DNA of 64,000 nucleotides from Streptomyces hundungensis. Lineage in GTDB: Bacteria; Actinomycetota; Actinomycetes; Streptomycetales; Streptomycetaceae. This document shows, one piece after another, positions 51,352 to 60,046 of the stretch. A program made the translations under genes and the position numbers. Below the pieces are notes generated by a model. That model was not told the origin of the DNA and made no database searches. It worked only from the letters and a program-made list of their open reading frames with translations. The DNA is taken from the NCBI RefSeq assembly GCF_003627815.1, contig NZ_CP032698.1, positions 6,634,001 to 6,698,000 of the forward strand. Direction: 5' to 3'. Positions within the stretch are counted from its first letter, which is position 1. Each line of letters starts with the position of its first letter.

Positions 51352-51992
51352 GGACGCCTCCTCTCACTGCGGTCTGCTTCTTGGGTCTTCTTCAGTTCCC
51401 TATCCCTATGGTCGTCCATGATGCGGATACCGCGCCAAGTGGATAGTCGCCGCGCAGGTGATTCGTGACGGTACTGGCACAGATCATGTGGCGATTCGTC
51501 AGGAATCTTCTGGGATACGCCCGGTACGCGACACCCGGCGTAACAAAATTATGAATGTCCCTCCACATGAGTGACGCAGCGGTCGTACGGGTGAACGGGC
51601 GGCTCGACAGGATGCCTGCCGCACTGAAGAACGATGTCTGGTGGGGGTGCCCCCCTTCGCCCGCCCCAATCCTGACGGAGGCTCAGTTCGCGCCCGCCCC
51701 GGGTACCGGAGCGCGGCCCACCGGGGCGGACAGCCAACTCCCGCCCGCCGCGGCGCCCTTCCGGCCGGGCCCGGGAACGCACCATCCGCACCACCCGACC
51801 CGGGCGCGCGCGACCCCGCCGAGCCCGCACGGTAGGCACCCTTGCGCGGCCGGTCCCGGCGCCCCAATACTCCTCCGCAGCGCTTGTCAGGAGCACGGCT
51901 GGGCGTCTCGTCGCGCTGCCGTCCTCCCCGGCTGCGCCTCACGGGGTCCCCCCTGTTACCGGGCCCCTCGATTCCCCTCGGGAGGAAAAGAA
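51352..51992. other. Long region between divergent sepF paralogue and protease gene
   Basis: 641 bp. The protease frame stays open upstream to 51555, but with no ribosome-binding site and with a composition unlike protein, so it is read as non-coding. taacaaaattatgaatg (51541-51557) is a notably AT-rich patch that may carry a promoter. Confidence 0.5.
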
Positions 51993-52898
51993 GTGAGGAT
52001 CAAGCGCACCACCCCCACATCCCCCACCACTCTCGCGAGACGCACCAGGCTCGCGGCCGTCGCCACCGGTCTGCTCGCCGCGGTGGCCGTCGCCATCCCC
52101 AACGCCGACGCCGCCCCCACGCGGACCTTCGACGCCGCGGCGCTCAACGCCGCCAGTGACGCCGTACGCGTCGCGGACGTCGCCGGGACCGCCTGGAGCG
52201 TGGACAGCGCCACCGGCAAGGTCGTCGTCACCGCCGACTCGACCGTCTCGGCCGCCGATCTCAACAAAATCAGACACGAGGCCGGAGCCAACGCGGGCGC
52301 GATACGCATCGAGCGCACCCCCGGCAAGTTCACCAAGCTGCTCTCCGGCGGCGACGCCATCTACACCACGAGCTGGCGCTGCTCGCTCGGCTTCAACGTC
52401 AAGAAGGGGTCCACCTATTACTTCCTGACGGCGGGTCACTGCACCGAGGGCTACCCGAACTACTACACCAGCTCCTCGCACTCGACGAGCATCGGCCCGA
52501 CGGTCGGCACCAGCTTCCCGGGCAACGACTACGGCCTCGTGCAGTACACCAACACCTCCCTCGCGCACCCCAGCGCGGTCGGCAGCCAGCCCATCACCAG
52601 CGCCGCCAACCCGACGGTCGGCCAGACCGTCACCCGGCGCGGCTCGACCACCGGCATCCACAGCGGCAAGGTCACCGCGCTCAACCAGACGGTCAACTAC
52701 GGCAGCGGCGACATCGTCTCCGGCCTCATCAAGACCACCGTGTGCGCCGAGCCCGGCGACTCCGGAGGCCCGCTCTACGCCGGCTCCACCGCGCTCGGCC
52801 TCACCTCGGGCGGCAGCGGCAACTGCTCCTCCGGCGGTACGACGTTCTTCCAGCCCGTGGTCGAAGCCATGAACGCCTATGGCGTGACCCTGTTCTGA
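51993..52898 (+). CDS. Secreted streptogrisin-type serine protease (S1E/alpha-lytic family)
   Basis: 301-residue preproprotein. Basic N-terminus and hydrophobic core ([20 protein letters not shown]) ending ADA mark a signal peptide; a ~75-residue pro-region follows. The mature domain holds the triad His149 (FLTAGHC), Asp179 (GNDYGLVQY) and Ser257 ([12 protein letters not shown]). Pro-regions of this type fold the enzyme and are cut off by itself. Specificity is like chymotrypsin in relatives. ggagg seven bases before GTG 51993. Confidence 0.92.
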
Positions 52899-53063: not shown

Positions 53064-53543
53064 GTGAAGCGCATCGGAGTGACCGGTCACCGGGACATCC
53101 CGCCCGACGCCGTCGAGGAGATCCGCGACCGGCTGCGCGCGGTGCTGTGCGACCACGACGGCTCCTTGGAGGCGCTGTCCAGCCTCGCCACCGGGGCCGA
53201 CCAGCTCTTCGCCTCGATCGCCCTGGACTGCGGGGCCTCCCTCACCGTGGTGATCCCGAGCGGCGACTACGAGAGGGGCTTCGCCAACGCCGCCGAACTG
53301 GCCCGCTACCGGGGCCTCAAACGCCGGGCGAGCCAGGAGGTCGCGCTCGACTACCCGCACTCCACGGACGAGGCCTACTACGCGGCCGGGGCCTACATCG
53401 CCGACCACTGCGACCGGCTCGTCGCGGTGTGGGACGGACTGCCGGCCCGGGGCCTCGGCGGCACCGGCGACATCGTGCAGTACGCCCGGGGCCTCGGCCG
53501 TCCCGTCACGGTCGTCTGGCGCGACGGCGCCCGGCGCGCCTGA
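53064..53543 (+). CDS. SLOG-domain protein (predicted nucleotide-derived signal sensor)
   Basis: 159 residues. Rossmann-like start MKRIGVTGHRDIPPDAVEEI, SSLATGADQLFASIALDCGA, VVIPSGDYERGFA, and the C-terminal VAVWDGLPARGLGGTGDIVQ with a GG[T/S]-type phosphate loop place it in the SLOG/LOG/DprA superfamily. These domains bind or produce nucleotide-derived messengers in predicted conflict systems (Burroughs and colleagues, 2015). The neighbour on the other strand, ending 22 bp away, is a SLATT-type membrane protein, the typical partner. Confidence 0.75.
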   Translation: MKRIGVTGHRDIPPDAVEEIRDRLRAVLCDHDGSLEALSSLATGADQLFASIALDCGASLTVVIPSGDYERGFANAAELARYRGLKRRASQEVALDYPHSTDEAYYAAGAYIADHCDRLVAVWDGLPARGLGGTGDIVQYARGLGRPVTVVWRDGARRA

Positions 53544-53565: not shown

Positions 53566-54522
53566 TCAACTCCGCAGCCGCGCCAGCCAGTCGGTGTGCT
53601 GGGGCGAGACGATGCGCTCGGTCTCGTACACGGCCTGCGGCCACTGCCGTTCGGTGACCATGTTCTCCATGGCCACATGCATCTCCATCAGGTCCTGCTC
53701 CACCAGCGAGTGCGCCGATATCAGCGGCTGGTGACGGCGGATCTCGCTCCAGGCGAGGCAGGCCGCGGCCGCGGCCGACAGCAGACCCGCCACGTCCACC
53801 CCGCGCGCCACCGAGAAGGTCTGGAGCGTGGCGAAGACAAGGGCGAGCAGGGTGAGCAGCGTGATCGCCGTCGACCACAGCCTGGTGGCGCGCCGGGAGG
53901 TCTCCTGGCGGCGCCGGTACCAGTTGCGCTGCTCGATGAGCCGGTCCCGTACGTAGGTCTCCTTGCGCACGGTGAACGACTTGCCCCGTAACTCCCGCAT
54001 GCCGGGCGTCACCAACTCCCCGGAGGGGGGCTCCGCGCCGTCCCGGGGGTCGCGCCAGCCCACCTTCTTCAACTCGCGCAGCCCCTCTTCGACCCGGGCC
54101 ACGAACAGCCCGTCCGGATCGGGGGCGTTGAGGTCGAAAGGGGCTCCGTGCACGGCGTAGCGCCAGCACATCGATTTGATGAACTCGGCTGCGGAGCGGT
54201 TGAGTTGCCAGTGCGAGGTGGCATGACGCCGGGCCGCCCCGAAACCGGCGAGCAGCACCCCGGCGTACGCGAGCGCGCTCAGCGCGCTGAGCAACTGGAA
54301 GTCCCCGCCCGCCTCCACCCCCGGCAGCGCCGCCGCGACCGCGCCGACGACGAGCAGCGAGAGCTGGGTCCGGGTCAGCTTGAGCGCCGACTGCTGCCGG
54401 CCGATCGCCAGCGCGTCCGCGTGGTGGAAGAGGCCCGGTAGATCCGCGTTCCGGAAGACCATGCTCTGCAATGGGCCGGGAATCGCCGTCACATGCACCC
54501 CCGTCTGCGGTTTTGCTTTCAT
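53566..54522 (-). CDS. SLATT/DUF4231-like membrane protein, predicted effector
   Basis: 318 residues (start uncertain; ATG 54462 beginning MVFRNADLPGLFHHADALAI is also possible). Two pairs of membrane segments (TQLSLLVVGAVAAALPG with LLSALSALAYAGVLLAG; STAITLLTLLALVFATLQTF with VAGLLSAAAAACLAW) bracket a cytoplasmic region starting WQLNRSAAEFIKSMCWRYAV. This is the layout of SLATT domains, 2-TM proteins predicted to form pores that depolarise the cell when a coupled nucleotide sensor fires. Convergent with the SLOG gene, divergent from fxsA. Confidence 0.7.
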   Translation of the reverse strand: MKAKPQTGVHVTAIPGPLQSMVFRNADLPGLFHHADALAIGRQQSALKLTRTQLSLLVVGAVAAALPGVEAGGDFQLLSALSALAYAGVLLAGFGAARRHATSHWQLNRSAAEFIKSMCWRYAVHGAPFDLNAPDPDGLFVARVEEGLRELKKVGWRDPRDGAEPPSGELVTPGMRELRGKSFTVRKETYVRDRLIEQRNWYRRRQETSRRATRLWSTAITLLTLLALVFATLQTFSVARGVDVAGLLSAAAAACLAWSEIRRHQPLISAHSLVEQDLMEMHVAMENMVTERQWPQAVYETERIVSPQHTDWLARLRS

Positions 54523-54668
54523 CCCTGCACCATGCGGCAGTTGTGCGCTCCCTTTGCGCACTCCTTACGCCGGTGGGGATGAGAGTAAAGTCGTCCTGCC
54601 GACACTGCAACGGTGCATGTGCCGGTGCCACTGTCCACGCGCGGTTATCACTCACCCCAGGGACGAAC
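54523..54668. other. Shared promoter region of SLATT gene and fxsA
   Basis: 146 bp between divergent starts. ttgtgcgctccctttgcgcac contains an inverted gtgcg/cgcac pair. TAAAGT near 54591 may be an fxsA -10 without clear -35. Confidence 0.35.
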
Positions 54669-54845
54669 GTGAAAACCTCCGTAAACACAGCCCCATTCAC
54701 TGCCGCGAAGAAGAACCGGGTGCCCCTGGCCGAACTGGCCTCCAGGGACGCCGATCAGGTCACCGACAAGGCGCTCGACAGGGTGCTGCGCGGGCCGGGC
54801 GGCCACCGGCCCCCGGCGGGATCCCTCTTCAGCTCAGCGCTCTGA
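54669..54845 (+). CDS. fxsA: FxSxx-COOH RiPP precursor peptide
   Basis: 58 residues. The leader carries VPLAELASRDADQVTDKALD, and the product ends PPAGSLFSSAL, so the last five residues are F-S-S-A-L, the FxSxL form of the FxSxx-COOH signature. In this class the adjacent FxsB radical-SAM enzyme acts on the C-terminal core, and characterised members receive a three-residue cyclophane. GTG start with aggga upstream. The small size, placement 139 bp before the maturase and exact C-terminal motif make the call firm. Confidence 0.85.
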   Translation: MKTSVNTAPFTAAKKNRVPLAELASRDADQVTDKALDRVLRGPGGHRPPAGSLFSSAL

Positions 54846-54865
54846 CAAGCATGTGGTGGCCCGCA

Positions 54866-54887
54866 CCCGCCGGGTGTGCCCGGCGGG
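54866..54887 (+). terminator. Hairpin between precursor and maturase genes
   Basis: cccgccggg/cccggcggg, a perfect 9-bp stem with tgtg loop, 20 bp after the fxsA stop. No T tract; likely a partial terminator or 3'-end stabiliser that keeps precursor mRNA in excess. Confidence 0.6.
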
Positions 54888-54953
54888 GAGCGGGTGGCGG
54901 ACGGGACGGGCGGGCCCGCCCGGGCAGCGGCCCGCGAACTCCCGTACCGGACA

Positions 54954-54985
54954 CCCGAATTCCCCTTTTCGCTAAACTGGCGCAA
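54954..54985 (+). promoter_or_regulatory. Candidate leaderless promoter of fxsB
   Basis: TAAACT (54973-54978) ends six bases before the A of ATG 54985, the spacing expected if transcription begins at the start codon. No Shine-Dalgarno is present (actggcgcaATG). The patch 54958-54980 is AT-rich for this genome; CGGACA about 19 bp upstream is a weak -35. Confidence 0.5.
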
Positions 54986-57174
54986 TGACAGGGCCCCTGG
55001 TCCCATTCCGCGAGATCGTTCTGAAAGTGCACAGCAGATGCGATCTTGCCTGTGATCACTGCTATGTGTACGAAGCCGCAGACCAGAGCTGGCGCGGTCG
55101 GCCCCGAGCCGTCTCCGAACAGGTCATTTCCCATACCGCTCGACGTCTTGCCGAGCACGCCGAAAAACACCGGCTCCCCTCCGTTTCGGTGATTCTGCAC
55201 GGCGGTGAACCCCTGCTCGCCGGGCCCGGGCGGCTGCGCCGCGTCTGCGAGGAGCTGACCGCCACCATCACCCCCGTCGCCCGGCTCGATCTGCGCATCC
55301 ACACCAACGGGGTGCTCCTCGGCCCGCGCTTCCTCGACCTGTTCGAGGAGTTCGGCGTGCAGGTCGGCATCTCGCTCGACGGCGACCGCGCCGCCAACGA
55401 CCGTCACCGGCGCTACGCCGACGGCCGCAGCAGCCATTCCCAGGTCCTTGCCGCCGTGGCCCTGCTCCAACAAGCGCGCTACCGCCCGCTCTTCCTCGGT
55501 CTGCTCTGCACCGTCGACATCGCCAACGACCCGCTCGCCGTGCACGACGCGCTGGTCGGGCTCGACCCGCCCCGCATCGACTACCTGCTGCCGCACGCCA
55601 CCTGGCAGAGCCCGCCGAACCGGCCCGACGGCTCGGCGAGCCCGTACGCCGACTGGCTGCTCGCCGTCTTCGACCGCTGGGACCAGCAGGGCCGCACCGT
55701 CCCGGTCCGGCTCTTCGACTCGGTGCTCTCGACCCTGCGCGGCGGCCCGAGCCTCACCGAGTCGCTGGGACTTGCCCCCGCCGACATCGTCGTGGTGGAG
55801 ACCGACGGCTCCCTGGAACAGGTCGACTCGCTCAAGTCGGCCTACGAAGGCGCCGCCGCCACCGGATTCTCCGTGTTCCGGGACGACTTCGACGCGGTCG
55901 CCGCCCACCCCGGCGTGCGCGCCCGCCAGCGAGGCCTGTCCGGCGTCGGCGACCAGTGCCGCCGCTGCCCGGTCGTCCGCTCCTGCGGCGGCGGCCACTA
56001 CACCCACCGCTACGACGCGGACCACGGCTTCGACAACCCGTCGGTGTACTGCCCCGACCTGATGGCCCTGGTACGCGGCATCGAGGCCCGCACCCCGATA
56101 CCCGACCTGCCCGGCGCGGCCCAACTGGCCGACGCGGGGCTTGAGTTGAACCGTATGCTGCTGGCCCGTCTGCACGCGGCGCTCGACGGGCGAGGAGGGG
56201 CGCGCTGGGCACGGGCCTGGGAACTCGCCACCCGCCTCGACGGCCCGGGGCTCGACACGGTCCTGGCCGACCCGTACGCCCGCCGCTGGCTGCTCGCGAC
56301 CCTGGAGGCGCTCGACGGCGCGCACCCCGACGCCATGGCGAGGGCCCACCGCCTCGCCGCGTACACGGTCGCCGCGGCCGTGCACGACGGAGCCGAACTC
56401 ACCCTCCCCGTGCCCTGGACCGGCGGCCGGCTGCACCTGCCCACCCTGGGCGAACTGCGCCCGACGGCCCCGGCCGACCAGGGCGTGGCCGAGGTCGCCG
56501 TCGCCGGCCACGGCTTCACGGTCCGGCACGCCGGCGCCGAGCACCGCATCGCCCGGCCCGCCGAACCCGGCCCGCACTGGCGGCCGTTGACCCGGGTCGA
56601 CGGTTTGGTCCTGGACGACCTCGACCCGTACCGCGACTGCTTCGAGAGCCCCGTGCTGCCCCGGCTCGGGCCGCGCGCGGCGGGGGAGTGGGGGCGCCGG
56701 GTGGCGCGGGCCCGCGCCCGGCTGGACCGGAGCGTGCCGCACCTCGCCCCGACCGACCTGCTCACCACGCTGACACCGCTCGCCCGGGGCGAGGGGCCCG
56801 AAGTGGGGCGCCACGGGCCCGGCGCCCTCGCGCTGCCCCTCGACCTCGCGGACGGCCCGCTCGCCGCCGCCCTGGTGCGCGGGGGGAGCCGGGCGAAACT
56901 GCGCGCCCTCCTGGACGTCGAGGACCTGTACGACATGGACGGGGCCTGGCGGCATCCGTCGCCCTGGGGGCCGCTCCCGGTCTCCCGGCTGCTCGCCGAG
57001 ACGTACGAAGCGGTCGCGCTGGCCGCCTTCGACGGCGGGACGGCCCCGGCGGAGCTCGGCTCCGCGCTGGACGCCCTCGAGCGGGCGGCCGAACTCACCA
57101 TCGCCGGAAAACGTCTGGTGCGGACCGTGCGCCAGGAGTGGGAAGAGGTAGCGCGTGCCCGAGAACACCGCTGA
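54985..57174 (+). CDS. fxsB: FxsB-type radical SAM/SPASM peptide maturase fused to a degenerate HExxH domain
   Basis: 729 residues. The radical-SAM cluster is C19-x3-C23-x2-C26 (RCDLACDHCYVYE), followed by LHGGEPLLAGPGRLR and LRIHTNGVLL. A SPASM region (CRRCPVVRSCGGGHYTHRY, SVYCPDL) binds auxiliary clusters. The C-terminal ~330 residues align with the HExxH-type peptide beta-hydroxylase domain commonly fused to FxsB (LDDLDPYRDCFESPV, then AKLRALLDVEDLYD), but where LVHEFQHAKL is expected the sequence reads LVRGGSRAKL: residues 632-636 are R-G-G-S-R. So the cyclophane-forming half looks active and the hydroxylase half does not. Stop overlaps the next gene by 20 bp. Confidence 0.87.
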   Translation: MTGPLVPFREIVLKVHSRCDLACDHCYVYEAADQSWRGRPRAVSEQVISHTARRLAEHAEKHRLPSVSVILHGGEPLLAGPGRLRRVCEELTATITPVARLDLRIHTNGVLLGPRFLDLFEEFGVQVGISLDGDRAANDRHRRYADGRSSHSQVLAAVALLQQARYRPLFLGLLCTVDIANDPLAVHDALVGLDPPRIDYLLPHATWQSPPNRPDGSASPYADWLLAVFDRWDQQGRTVPVRLFDSVLSTLRGGPSLTESLGLAPADIVVVETDGSLEQVDSLKSAYEGAAATGFSVFRDDFDAVAAHPGVRARQRGLSGVGDQCRRCPVVRSCGGGHYTHRYDADHGFDNPSVYCPDLMALVRGIEARTPIPDLPGAAQLADAGLELNRMLLARLHAALDGRGGARWARAWELATRLDGPGLDTVLADPYARRWLLATLEALDGAHPDAMARAHRLAAYTVAAAVHDGAELTLPVPWTGGRLHLPTLGELRPTAPADQGVAEVAVAGHGFTVRHAGAEHRIARPAEPGPHWRPLTRVDGLVLDDLDPYRDCFESPVLPRLGPRAAGEWGRRVARARARLDRSVPHLAPTDLLTTLTPLARGEGPEVGRHGPGALALPLDLADGPLAAALVRGGSRAKLRALLDVEDLYDMDGAWRHPSPWGPLPVSRLLAETYEAVALAAFDGGTAPAELGSALDALERAAELTIAGKRLVRTVRQEWEEVARAREHR

Positions 57175-57946
57175 GCACCCCGGAGAACACCCCGCGGGGG
57201 ATCCGGTCGGCCAACTGCGCGCCCTCGGGGTGCGGGAGGGCGGGATCCTCCTGGTGCACGCCTCGCTGCGCGGCACCGGGCTGCGCAGCGCCGTGCTCCT
57301 GGACGCGCTGCGCACCGTGCTCGGGCCCGAGGGGACGCTGGTGGTGCCCGCGTTCACCCCCGAGAACTCCGACACCTCCCCGGCCCATCTGGCCCGTCTG
57401 CGCCGGGCCCCCGACCCGGTCGCCTTCCGCGCCGCGATGCCGCCCTTCGACCCCGACCACACCCCCTCCCCGGGGACGGGACGCCTGGCCGCGCGGGTCA
57501 GGACCACCCCGGGAGCCGTCCGCAGCGATCACCCGCAGACCTCGTTCGCGGCGCTCGGGTTCCGCGCCGCCGAGCTGATGAAGGGCCATGCGCTCGACTG
57601 CCACTTCGGCGCGGAGTCCCCCCTGGCCAAGCTCGTCGCGGCCGACGCCCAGGTCCTCCTCGTCAATGTGGGCTTCGCGGTGTGCTCCGCCTTCCACCAC
57701 GCCGAGTACCTGCTGCCGGCTCCGAGCCGCACCTACCGCGCGGTGATCAGGGACGAGAGCGGCGCGACCACCTGGTTCGAGTACCGGGACGCGGCGCTCG
57801 ACGACAGCGACTTCGCCCGCATCGGCGCCGCGTTCCCCGCCGAGCACCTGCGCGGCGGCCCGCTGGGCAGCCGGGACGCGCTGCTCTTCCCGATCGGTGT
57901 GGCCGTCGAGCACGCGGCCGCCTGGATGGCACGGGAACGGCGCTGA
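57155..57946 (+). CDS. AAC(3)-family N-acetyltransferase
   Basis: 263 residues. AAC(3) fold markers: LLVHASLRGTGLRSAVLLDA, GTLVVPAFTPENSDTS, RSDHPQTSFAALG and the catalytic-site SAFHHAEY. Antibiotic-resistance members acetylate aminoglycosides, but relatives are frequent beside FxsB-type maturases, where acetylation of the peptide product or its precursor is a reasonable inference. The GTG start inside fxsB, with agaggt six bases before, implies coupled translation. Confidence 0.82.
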   Translation: MPENTAEHPGEHPAGDPVGQLRALGVREGGILLVHASLRGTGLRSAVLLDALRTVLGPEGTLVVPAFTPENSDTSPAHLARLRRAPDPVAFRAAMPPFDPDHTPSPGTGRLAARVRTTPGAVRSDHPQTSFAALGFRAAELMKGHALDCHFGAESPLAKLVAADAQVLLVNVGFAVCSAFHHAEYLLPAPSRTYRAVIRDESGATTWFEYRDAALDDSDFARIGAAFPAEHLRGGPLGSRDALLFPIGVAVEHAAAWMARERR

Positions 57947-57980
57947 GCGACGGCCGCGAGGAGGGCCCCGGGGGCGGGGG

Positions 57981-58034
57981 CCGTACCGGGCCTCCCTGCC
58001 GTACCGGGCCTCCCTGCCGTACGGGGTCTCCCTT
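57981..58034 (+). repeat. Three tandem 18-bp repeats
   Basis: ccgtaccgggcctccctg occurs twice exactly and once with changes, in the gap upstream of the SPFH gene. The 148-bp gap holds nothing else recognisable. Confidence 0.85.
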
Positions 58035-58094
58035 TGGGGGAGCCACGGAGTTACCGTCGAGGTACACGTCCGATTCGGACCCTTGGGGGCCGTG

Positions 58095-58967
58095 ATGGTC
58101 GAGGCACTGGTGGCGGCCGGCATCGCCGCCGGATCAGCCGGCGTCGTCTACGCGCTGGCCGCGGCGCGGGTCGTCAAGCAGTACGAGCGCGGAGTGGTGC
58201 TCCGGCTCGGCAGGCTGCGGGATTCGGTGCGCGGGCCCGGTCTGACGCTGATCGTGCCCTTCGTCGACCGGCTGCGCCGAGTGAACATGCAGATCGTGAC
58301 GATGCCGGTGCCCGCGCAGGACGGCATCACACGGGACAACGTCACGGTCCGGGTCGACGCGGTGATCTACTTCAAGGTGATCGACGCCGCGGACGCGGTC
58401 ATTCAGGTCGAGGACTACCAGTTCGCGGTCTCGCAGATGGCGCAGACCTCGCTGCGTTCGATCATCGGCAAGAGCGACCTGGACGATCTGCTGTCCAACC
58501 GGGAGAAGCTCAACCAGGGCCTTGAGCTGATGATCGACAGCCCGGCCATGGGGTGGGGCGTACAGATCGACCGGGTCGAGATCAAGGACGTGTCGCTGCC
58601 GGAGACGATGAAGCGCTCGATGGCCCGCCAGGCCGAGGCCGACCGCGAGCGCCGGGCGCGGGTCATCAACGCGGACGCCGAACTCCAGGCCTCCAAGAAG
58701 CTGGCCGAGGCGGCCGCGGTGATGTCGGAGCAGCCCGCCGCCCTCCAACTGAGGCTGTTGCAGACCGTGGTGGCGGTGGCCGCCGAGAAGAACTCGACGC
58801 TGGTGCTGCCGTTCCCGGTGGAACTCCTGCGATTCCTCGAACGCGCCCAGCAGCCCATCGCCGAGCCGGCGAAACCCGCGGCCGAGCCGGCGAAGCCCGC
58901 CGCCGCGGACGTGCCGGCGGCGCAGGCGCATTCCGAGATCGTGGGAGAGGACAGCGGCGGCGCGTGA
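58095..58967 (+). CDS. SPFH/stomatin-like (slipin) membrane protein
   Basis: 290 residues. One N-terminal membrane segment (LVAAGIAAGSAGVVYALAAA) then the SPFH domain: VKQYERGVVLRLGRLRDSVR, GPGLTLIVPFVDRLRRVNMQ, DAVIYFKVIDAADAVIQVED, and the helical tail SMARQAEADRERRARVINAD. Slipins form membrane scaffolds that organise microdomains. ATG 58095 is preferred over GTG 58092. C-terminal ~40 residues are an Ala/Pro linker. Confidence 0.9.
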   Translation: MVEALVAAGIAAGSAGVVYALAAARVVKQYERGVVLRLGRLRDSVRGPGLTLIVPFVDRLRRVNMQIVTMPVPAQDGITRDNVTVRVDAVIYFKVIDAADAVIQVEDYQFAVSQMAQTSLRSIIGKSDLDDLLSNREKLNQGLELMIDSPAMGWGVQIDRVEIKDVSLPETMKRSMARQAEADRERRARVINADAELQASKKLAEAAAVMSEQPAALQLRLLQTVVAVAAEKNSTLVLPFPVELLRFLERAQQPIAEPAKPAAEPAKPAAADVPAAQAHSEIVGEDSGGA

Positions 58968-58984
58968 GGGAGCGCCCAACTCCC

Positions 58985-60046
58985 TTACGGCGCAGGCCTG
59001 TTGGGCTCGTCCGGTGCGACGGGAGAAGCCCCCGCGCCCACCGGCGCGACGCCCGACTCGCGGCGGAACCCGGCCAGGACCAGCGTGACGACGGCCCCGA
59101 GCAGCGCCCAGATCGACAGCACCTGGAGCGGTCCGCTGATCGACTCGCCCCTGAAGTACGCGATGGAGCGGGCCGCCCAGGTGCCGGCGCCCGGAGGGAG
59201 CCCGGGCCCGATCGTCCGCCAGAACGGGGGAAGCAGCGGGTACGGGTAGGCGCCGCCCGCGCTCGGATTGCCGAGCACGACGATGACCAGGATCGCCAGG
59301 CCGATGCCGATGACACCGGCGAGGCCCTGGAAGGCGAGGGTGGTGGCCCCCACCGCGAACACGACCAGCGCGCCGAGCCCGGAGAGGCCCAGATAGCTGC
59401 CGGGCAGCGCACCGAGGACCGGCCCGATGATGAGCGCGCCGAGCAGTCCCGCGGCGATCGAGTACAGCGCGAGCACCGCGAGCCGGATCAGCGCGCGATG
59501 GGTGTTGGCGGGCCGGGCGCCCGCGCTGATCGCCAGGATCGCGGCGCACAGATAGCCGCCCACGCACCAGCCGACGACGAGGTAGAACGCGGACAGCGTC
59601 CGGGAGTCCTGCCGCGCCGCGGGCGCGACGTCGACCACCTTGACGGTGCGCTGCTGTGCCTTCTCGGCCGCCGTCGTGATCGCCTCCACGGCCTGCGCGA
59701 GCGAGGCGCCGCCGCCGCTCGCCACCAGCACCGTGTCGGTGGTGCCCCGCGGGTCGACGAGCAGGGCCCCGTCGATGCTGCGGTCGCGCACCTGCCGGGT
59801 GGCGTCGGCCTCGTCCTTGGCCGTGCGTACGTCGAGCGGATCGCCGGGCAGCGCCCCGAGGCGCTGGACGAGCTGCCCGCTGATCTGCTGGGGCGCGACC
59901 ACGGCGAAGGGGATGTCCTTCGGCTCGGGGTTGTGGAAGGCGCCGGCGTACGACGCGATGAAGGCGACCATCAGCCCCAGTACGCCGATGACCAGCAGGG
60001 CGGCCCGCACGGAGACGGCGGTCTTCACCTCGTCGACGAAAGTCAT
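58985..60046 (-). CDS. ABC-2/YhgE-Pip-like membrane protein (DUF3533 type)
   Basis: 353 residues. An N-terminal membrane helix, a ~120-residue extracytoplasmic domain (PFAVVAPQQISGQLVQRLGA, DGALLVDPRGTTDTVLVASG) and five C-terminal helices (FYLVVGWCVGGYLCAAILAI onward) give the ABC-2-type permease layout of the YhgE/Pip group. No ATPase is adjacent. Role unknown; relatives include phage-receptor and secretion-linked proteins. Convergent with the SPFH gene (17 bp). Confidence 0.75.
   Translation of the reverse strand: MTFVDEVKTAVSVRAALLVIGVLGLMVAFIASYAGAFHNPEPKDIPFAVVAPQQISGQLVQRLGALPGDPLDVRTAKDEADATRQVRDRSIDGALLVDPRGTTDTVLVASGGGASLAQAVEAITTAAEKAQQRTVKVVDVAPAARQDSRTLSAFYLVVGWCVGGYLCAAILAISAGARPANTHRALIRLAVLALYSIAAGLLGALIIGPVLGALPGSYLGLSGLGALVVFAVGATTLAFQGLAGVIGIGLAILVIVVLGNPSAGGAYPYPLLPPFWRTIGPGLPPGAGTWAARSIAYFRGESISGPLQVLSIWALLGAVVTLVLAGFRRESGVAPVGAGASPVAPDEPNRPAP

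Follow-up and report, generated by a model that had tools for sequence, protein, structure and literature searches.

A conserved AAC(3)-fold acyltransferase beside the radical SAM maturase FxsB in a reduced FxSxx-COOH locus of Streptomyces hundungensis

Why should an enzyme with the fold of the aminoglycoside acetyltransferases AAC(3) be encoded in overlap with a peptide-crosslinking maturase? The question is raised by a 64,000-nucleotide stretch of Streptomyces hundungensis DNA (hereafter the window; positions 6,634,001-6,698,000 of a complete 8.39 Mb chromosome, genome G000), in which three forward-strand genes follow one another. These are fxsA (54669..54845) for a 58-residue precursor, fxsB (54985..57174) for a radical S-adenosylmethionine (SAM)/SPASM maturase of 729 residues, and a gene (57155..57946) for a predicted AAC(3)-fold acyltransferase of 263 residues, hereafter AAC, which overlaps fxsB by 20 nt and is likely to be translationally coupled to it. 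An earlier note on this DNA had read the trio as a compact, minimal triceptide-type pathway; precursor, maturase and AAC partner are all where it placed them. The compact design is not supported, and neither is an acetylation at a fixed lysine. As shown below, AAC is not specific to this strain but is a long-standing, conserved partner of FxsB. The explanation that we favour as a whole, to which we would give a probability of roughly 0.45, is that the trio would be the peptide-modifying half of a FxSxx-COOH conflict or signalling locus, that AAC would acylate the product of FxsB and that the locus in this host would have lost FxsC and FxsT, two further components of such loci.

FxsA starts with a GTG at 54669, has its stop at 54843-54845 and ends in F54-S55-S56-A57-L58, as befits an FxSxx-COOH precursor. 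It matches positions 2-44 of the 44 in TIGR04268 at 20.9 bits, below the curated cut-off of 28, and its orthologue in Streptomyces sp. ASQP_92 (L129) has 86% identical residues with all 58 aligned. FxsB scores 578.5 bits against TIGR04269 (cut-off 370), a family that we take to be the same as IPR026335, and contains the CxxxCxxC motif. The triceptide-type assignment is consistent with this score and with the FSSAL terminus, since an aromatic-X-residue motif (F54-S55-S56) lies beside a maturase of the FxsB family, which is of the 3-CyFE type. MscB, of family IPR026335, is reported in the accessible text of PMC11002830 to link C4 of Phe with Cβ of Ser. By analogy, FxsB would form a three-residue cyclophane on FxsA, from the ring of Phe54 to Cβ of Ser56, which agrees with the earlier proposal that the Phe near the C-terminus is the crosslink donor. 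AAC, for its part, matches PF02522 at 220.9 bits (gathering threshold 25), is modelled with a predicted local distance difference test score (pLDDT) of 91.8 and keeps H126, H181 and E184, which are invariant across 22 aligned relatives and paralogues. It shares PF02522 and the conserved His/Glu motif with FrbF, YokD and the aminoglycoside AAC(3) enzymes, but differs from them in scoring 140.4 bits against the NCBIfam AAC_3 resistance model, under the cut-off of 270, on which ground a role in aminoglycoside resistance was rejected. It also differs in phylogeny: in a tree of 136 sequences thinned to 98 and built by a quick method, the window clade is separate from the other AAC(3) paralogues of the genus.

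The partnership emerges from a sample of 150 Streptomyces genomes. Full-length matches to AAC fall into two classes, one at >=48% identity to the window protein, which defines the AAC clade and occurs in 50 genomes, and one at <=47%; short or split matches in G136 (53% over 138 residues) and G005 were excluded from the clade. The FxsB branch of the window was defined as long FxsB without HExxH whose extension can be aligned to that of window FxsB, which leaves outside its 47 genomes G004 and G041 (HExxH-less FxsBH of a different branch, without AAC) and G033 (a 65% radical SAM piece in a broken frame, without AAC of the clade). With sets typed by hand from search listings (47, 103, 50 and, for the SLATT protein discussed below, 42 genomes), the AAC clade is present in 46 of the 47 genomes with the FxsB branch as against 4 of the 103 others. 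AAC lies directly downstream of fxsB in 31 of these 46, so that linkage confined to this strain, the outcome that the earlier note had named as damaging to its case, is not what is found. Among the 80 named AAC loci, taken because they match the AAC alignment best and therefore a non-random set in which some duplicate sample genomes, FxsB is immediately upstream in 64; the nearest to the window by AAC are L129 (closest), CB01201 (L130) and S. xanthochromogenes (L131). Of the remainder, inspected like the others over up to 9 kb on each side, 12 have no Fxs gene within the stretch, three have a SLOG-SLATT-AAC arrangement without FxsB and one is cut by a contig end. Of 95 linked loci, 82 offer an in-frame ATG or GTG that overlaps the stop of fxsB by 4, 8 or 20 nt (74 of 86 once identical DNA is removed), which points to more than a chance arrangement.

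AAC is elsewhere than next to fxsB in 15 of the 46 genomes, and in 14 of these (L117 is the exception) it sits in a conserved block with genes that by their sequences resemble sbcCD and yigZ. The same block is found in 11 of the 12 named AAC-only loci. In the tree, FxsB-linked lineages fall outside the node that holds the unlinked copies at this site (Shimodaira–Hasegawa-like approximate likelihood ratio test, 92, unstarred), so that the unlinked copies look derived; L187 carries the label of this site in the tree, and a later check found no SbcCD block there. Loci of this kind, with clade AAC beside SbcCD/YigZ-like genes, include L105-L116, L118 and L119, most of whose genomes carry the FxsB branch elsewhere. 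An HEFQH-type Fxs locus lies in or adjoins the SbcCD block in L089, L090 and L094 (shared neighbour clusters c10, c12, c15 and c17), which makes it possible that the block is an insertion hot spot or the source of the unlinked AAC.

The association extends beyond the genus. The FxsB-linked lineages outside that node include Microtetraspora niveoalba of the Streptosporangiaceae (L204) and L214, L215 and L216 of other genera, all four with the gene order fxsA-fxsB-AAC-fxsC-fxsT. Of 394 genomes sampled across the class, 43 have a match to the AAC model at E <= 1e-60, not all of them of the Fxs clade, and 14 stretches from 13 genomes were chosen for locus inspection. These stretches are the source of L214, L215 and L216 and also include the same five-gene order in L217 (same genus), a full locus of the S. 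virginiae type in L223 and FxsB-AAC-SLATT-SLOG in L218, as well as AAC without FxsB in the stretch (L219, L220, L225, L226 and L227) and FxsB-FxsC-FxsT without AAC (L221, L222 and L224).

The divergence of AAC also appears to track that of FxsB, including where AAC is unlinked. When protein distances are compared across 47 full loci, AAC shows a partial correlation of 0.51 with the C-terminal domain of FxsB and of 0.30 with its radical SAM part, whereas values with SLATT, SLOG, FxsC and FxsT lie between -0.18 and -0.01 (-0.12 for FxsC, the product of the adjacent gene); SLATT-SLOG and FxsC-FxsT reach 0.67 and 0.52. Half-samples give medians of 0.47 and 0.26 for the C-terminal domain and the radical SAM part, and thinning to 31 loci gives 0.34 and 0.27. 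In the 15 genomes with unlinked AAC, the highest partial value is again that with the C-terminal domain of FxsB (0.67). Linkage and overlap with fxsB, the correlation over the 47 loci and that in the unlinked set are the reasons for regarding the FxsB product as the most likely substrate of AAC, which would be a dedicated partner of FxsB adding an acetyl or other acyl group to the same peptide.

Several observations weigh against this explanation. The sole exception in the FxsB branch, G054, encodes FxsA and FxsB but no AAC. In L132, L146 and L154, three separate lineages, SLOG-SLATT-AAC is kept without FxsA and FxsB (another FxsB is elsewhere in each genome), which the tree implies to have arisen three separate times and which is unexpected for a pure FxsA tailoring enzyme; the Fxs-less AACs of L219, L220 and L225-L227 branch near the base of the tree, so that the family may not have begun as an Fxs partner. 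In the unlinked set AAC also correlates with SLATT (0.39-0.55), and among the 19 loci of the S. virginiae subset AAC correlates with the radical SAM part (0.75) and FxsC (0.38) and not with the C-terminal domain (-0.07). The correlations are, moreover, computed on distances among related genomes, which are non-independent, and adjacent genes may share recombination; many of the 129 FxsB loci likewise come from near relatives. Some of these observations would suit an immunity function or off-switch, with AAC protecting the cell by inactivating the mature peptide through acetylation of the peptide or of its free N-terminus. The persistence of AAC after loss of FxsA and FxsB at those three loci and its unlinked position in 15 of 46 co-occurring genomes are in accord with such a role, and so is the fact that some FxsB is present in each of the 50 sample genomes with AAC and in all 19 genomes that underlie named AAC loci, at least two of these being duplicates of sample genomes. 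However, some FxsB is found in 97 of the 150 genomes regardless, and coupling to fxsB and co-divergence with FxsB suit a biosynthetic partner at least equally well, and we consider immunity unlikely.

If AAC is instead a biosynthetic acyltransferase, where on the peptide would it act? FxsA candidates were detected in 110 of 129 loci with a FxsB match through the motif F.S.., so that F and S are invariant by design of the search, and their starts were picked automatically (that of L131 FxsA was called too short). Among 79 distinct FxsA from AAC loci, with such automatic starts, seven have no Lys at all and just 15 have one within the last 20 residues, counts that led us to reject acetylation of a conserved lysine. 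Acetylation of a hydroxyl made by the HExxH domain fused to FxsB was rejected too, AAC being retained where HExxH is lost. Since there is no conserved Lys and AAC is kept with a dead hydroxylase, the free α-amine or a Ser/Thr hydroxyl would be the better sites. Acylation of ribosomally synthesized and post-translationally modified peptides (RiPPs) is, in the portion of PMC10373908 available, mainly N-terminal, as for goadsporin by GodH. What is predicted here resembles goadsporin, albusnodin (PMC10373908) and a daropeptide cluster with a putative N-acetyltransferase (PMC9055067), at least as these are described in the accessible parts of both papers, in that a cluster-encoded enzyme acetylates the RiPP. 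It differs in the enzyme, which is of the GNAT type in those cases where it is named and of the unrelated AAC(3) fold in the window.

The domain with which AAC co-varies most strongly over the 47 loci, the C-terminal extension of FxsB (residues 373-729, after a cyclophane synthase part at 1-372), was overlooked in the earlier note, as was a SLOG/SLATT pair upstream. A fused HExxH domain is described as a peptide hydroxylase in the available text of PMC12636437. The best PDB sequence match of window FxsB is the radical SAM domain of ChlB (9gm3, E 4.5e-75), which recalls the fused radical SAM and α-ketoglutarate-dependent (αKG)-HExxH enzymes of the ChlB/ChlH type, but in window FxsB the HEFQH column of an alignment of 123 long FxsB reads RGGSR, and the protein matches the 'lost HExxH' model NF040587 at 339.3 bits (cut-off 225). 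By its sequence the extension is a hydroxylase domain without its HExxH metal site and, because HExxH is replaced by RGGSR, hydroxylation is not expected. The domain should nevertheless still fold well, its model having a mean pLDDT of 89.6, and may act as a scaffold. Strict coupling between AAC and HExxH loss was ruled out, as HExxH is intact in L204, L214, L215 and L216, all with AAC, and lost in L093, L098, L099, L210 and L211, where no AAC is beside fxsB. A bolder version, which we regard as rather doubtful, would have AAC as a dedicated peptide acyltransferase in complex with FxsB, docked on the dead hydroxylase domain, with the acylated cyclophane peptide as the internal signal of an immune-like actinobacterial locus built on TIR/NB-ARC and SLOG/SLATT proteins.

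What would use such a peptide is suggested by the fuller set of genes in relatives, which comprises SLOG-SLATT and FxsA-FxsB-AAC-FxsC(TIR)-FxsT(NB-ARC/TPR) and resembles an immune or signalling system. AAC is accompanied by FxsB, FxsC and FxsT in 56 of the 80 named loci, and as the locus in the window has neither FxsC nor FxsT it cannot be called compact and minimal; both SLOG and SLATT are present in 56 of the 80 as well. In L046 both proteins exceed their cut-offs, FxsC as TIGR04276/NF040588 and FxsT as NF040586 with ParA-like, TIR, NB-ARC and TPR parts. FxsT follows AAC in L177, L199, L205 and L206 with no FxsC detected, and L199, L205 and L206 have another FxsC/FxsT pair upstream. A FxSxx-COOH system with a TIR/AP-ATPase partner has been described, with a zincin-like metallopeptidase named as core, and such loci have been proposed to supply a processed peptide, toxin or signal, to TIR/AP-ATPase systems; FxsC and a FxsT with a ParA-like domain in the relatives match the 'standalone' systems of that paper (PMC7159879, available sections). 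The window shares with the FxsA/FxsB/FxsC/FxsT system the FxSxx precursor and FxsB, and differs in having the AAC(3)-fold enzyme and no FxsC or FxsT. With the triceptides of MscB-type enzymes it shares a Phe-X-Ser motif and a SPASM maturase, but the hydroxylase domain, which is dead, and the AAC(3)-fold partner set it apart from them. In the accessible main text of PMC7159879 'acetyltransferase' occurs twice, the passage seen dealing with a GNAT domain found among vWA effectors, while SLATT is treated in the passages seen as part of GTPase-centred systems. Searches of open-licence papers showed none that names AAC(3) or SLOG/SLATT as a partner of FxsB or reports the form of the peptide in FxSxx-COOH loci or its reader; the FxSxx-COOH system is known, while its AAC(3) partner appears unreported in that literature. 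Such a conserved acyltransferase partner makes possible a concrete prediction of the final FxSxx peptide product, and the linked SLOG/SLATT pair points to a possible membrane output.

In the window this pair consists of a putative SLOG protein of 159 residues (53064..53543, forward strand; Rossmann-like, possibly nucleotide-sensing), whose orthologues lie beside SLATT at Fxs loci, and a divergent two-domain SLATT_3 + SLATT_1 protein (53566..54561, reverse strand, start codon uncertain). The latter exceeds the cut-offs of PF18184 (131.8 bits) and PF18181 (128.4 bits), as expected for a two-transmembrane SLATT protein, and is a predicted membrane effector. The 159-residue protein has no Pfam or NCBIfam match at E <= 1 and no useful match in the PDB; we presume it to be SLOG from its motifs and from a sub-threshold match of its L046 orthologue to DprA (PF02481, E 0.019). 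The pair is mostly upstream, but the S. virginiae group has it downstream of FxsT and L218 has it right behind AAC, so that its link to the Fxs loci outlasts rearrangement. PADLOC matched none of the AAC, SLATT, SLOG and FxsC proteins; it gave a weak viperin match for FxsB and PDC-M28B matches for FxsT of L046. The pair invites another explanation, namely that AAC acts not on the peptide but on a small molecule of the TIR/SLOG/SLATT branch, for example a nucleotide-derived signal. The closest solved relative of AAC by sequence is FrbF (E 6e-40), whose substrate is nucleotide-linked; AAC is present in all 42 genomes of the sample with a SLATT orthologue (>=43% identity) and adjoins SLATT in L218 and L102. 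Yet a SLATT orthologue is missing from 8 of the 50 genomes with AAC, and the partial correlations of AAC with SLATT and SLOG over the 47 full loci are about zero, which leaves a small-molecule substrate improbable. Also upstream, at 51555-52898, is a secreted trypsin-like protease with an alpha-lytic prodomain, conserved in one synteny group only and rejected as leader protease for following that single group; as the earlier note had stated, no protease or exporter is found among the conserved partner genes identified.

How, then, did the window come to have only the trio? A segment of about 6 kb, encoding FxsC and FxsT, separates AAC from a Band_7 gene in L130 and L131 and is gone in the window and L129. 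The junction in the window, at 57947..58094 on the forward strand, leads directly to the SPFH/Band_7 gene: when window 57947-60000 was compared by blastn with L129-L131, its position 76 aligned with 16093 in L130 and 16014 in L131, past fxsC and fxsT, and with 9832 in L129. By this comparison the locus is a reduced one that has lost FxsC and FxsT. It might be a decaying remnant whose three genes are functionless after that loss, as the same loss in L129 and the further absence of FxsA and FxsB in L132, where AAC is intact, could suggest. The ratio of non-synonymous to synonymous substitution rates (Ka/Ks) of the radical SAM part alone, 0.24 between window and L129 versus 0.13 between L130 and L131, points the same way and adds to the points raised above against our explanation, since weak relaxation is possible. 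However, the reading frames are intact, and Ka/Ks between window and L129, both without FxsC/FxsT, is 0.30 for FxsB (bootstrap 0.21-0.45) and 0.14 for AAC (0.06-0.32), values that, within error, do not exceed the 0.28 and 0.20 of L130-L131, a pair with full loci. FxsA gives 0.40 against L129 (58 codons) and evolves fast, as its value of 1.16 against L131 indicates. All three genes look to be under purifying selection, and decay is in our view quite improbable. The same trio without FxsC/FxsT, with a short FxsB, recurs in S. bicolor (L184) and strain HD (L195), which suggests that it can stand alone; the reduced loci of the window, L129 and S. bicolor are small natural systems in which the predicted product could be tested.

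Under the peptide-acylation explanation, the product would work in relatives with FxsC (TIR) and FxsT (ParA-like/TIR/NB-ARC/TPR) beside the SLOG-SLATT membrane module, and in this strain the modified peptide would still be made, with either SLOG/SLATT or the FxsC/FxsT pair of a second Fxs locus mediating its action. This locus (L094, G000 7,168,000-7,181,000) is about 0.48 Mb away and encodes a precursor ending in FQSAL, a FxsB with intact HEFQH, FxsC and FxsT, with no AAC within the stretch; the only FxsC and FxsT matches of the host genome, one each, are located there, at 7.176-7.181 Mb.

A last feature concerns the gap between fxsA and fxsB (54846..54984, forward strand), which contains an inverted repeat forming a 9-bp GC-rich stem-loop (CCCGCCGGG-TGTG-CCCGGCGGG) common to the window, L129, L130 and L131. 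It is part of the predicted fold in three of the four gaps (z -1.2 to -2.1), L130 having an alternative fold (z -3.9). A conserved CGCTAAACTGGCG stretch ahead of the fxsB start is common to the same four loci, and together the two elements may control the ratio of precursor to enzyme.

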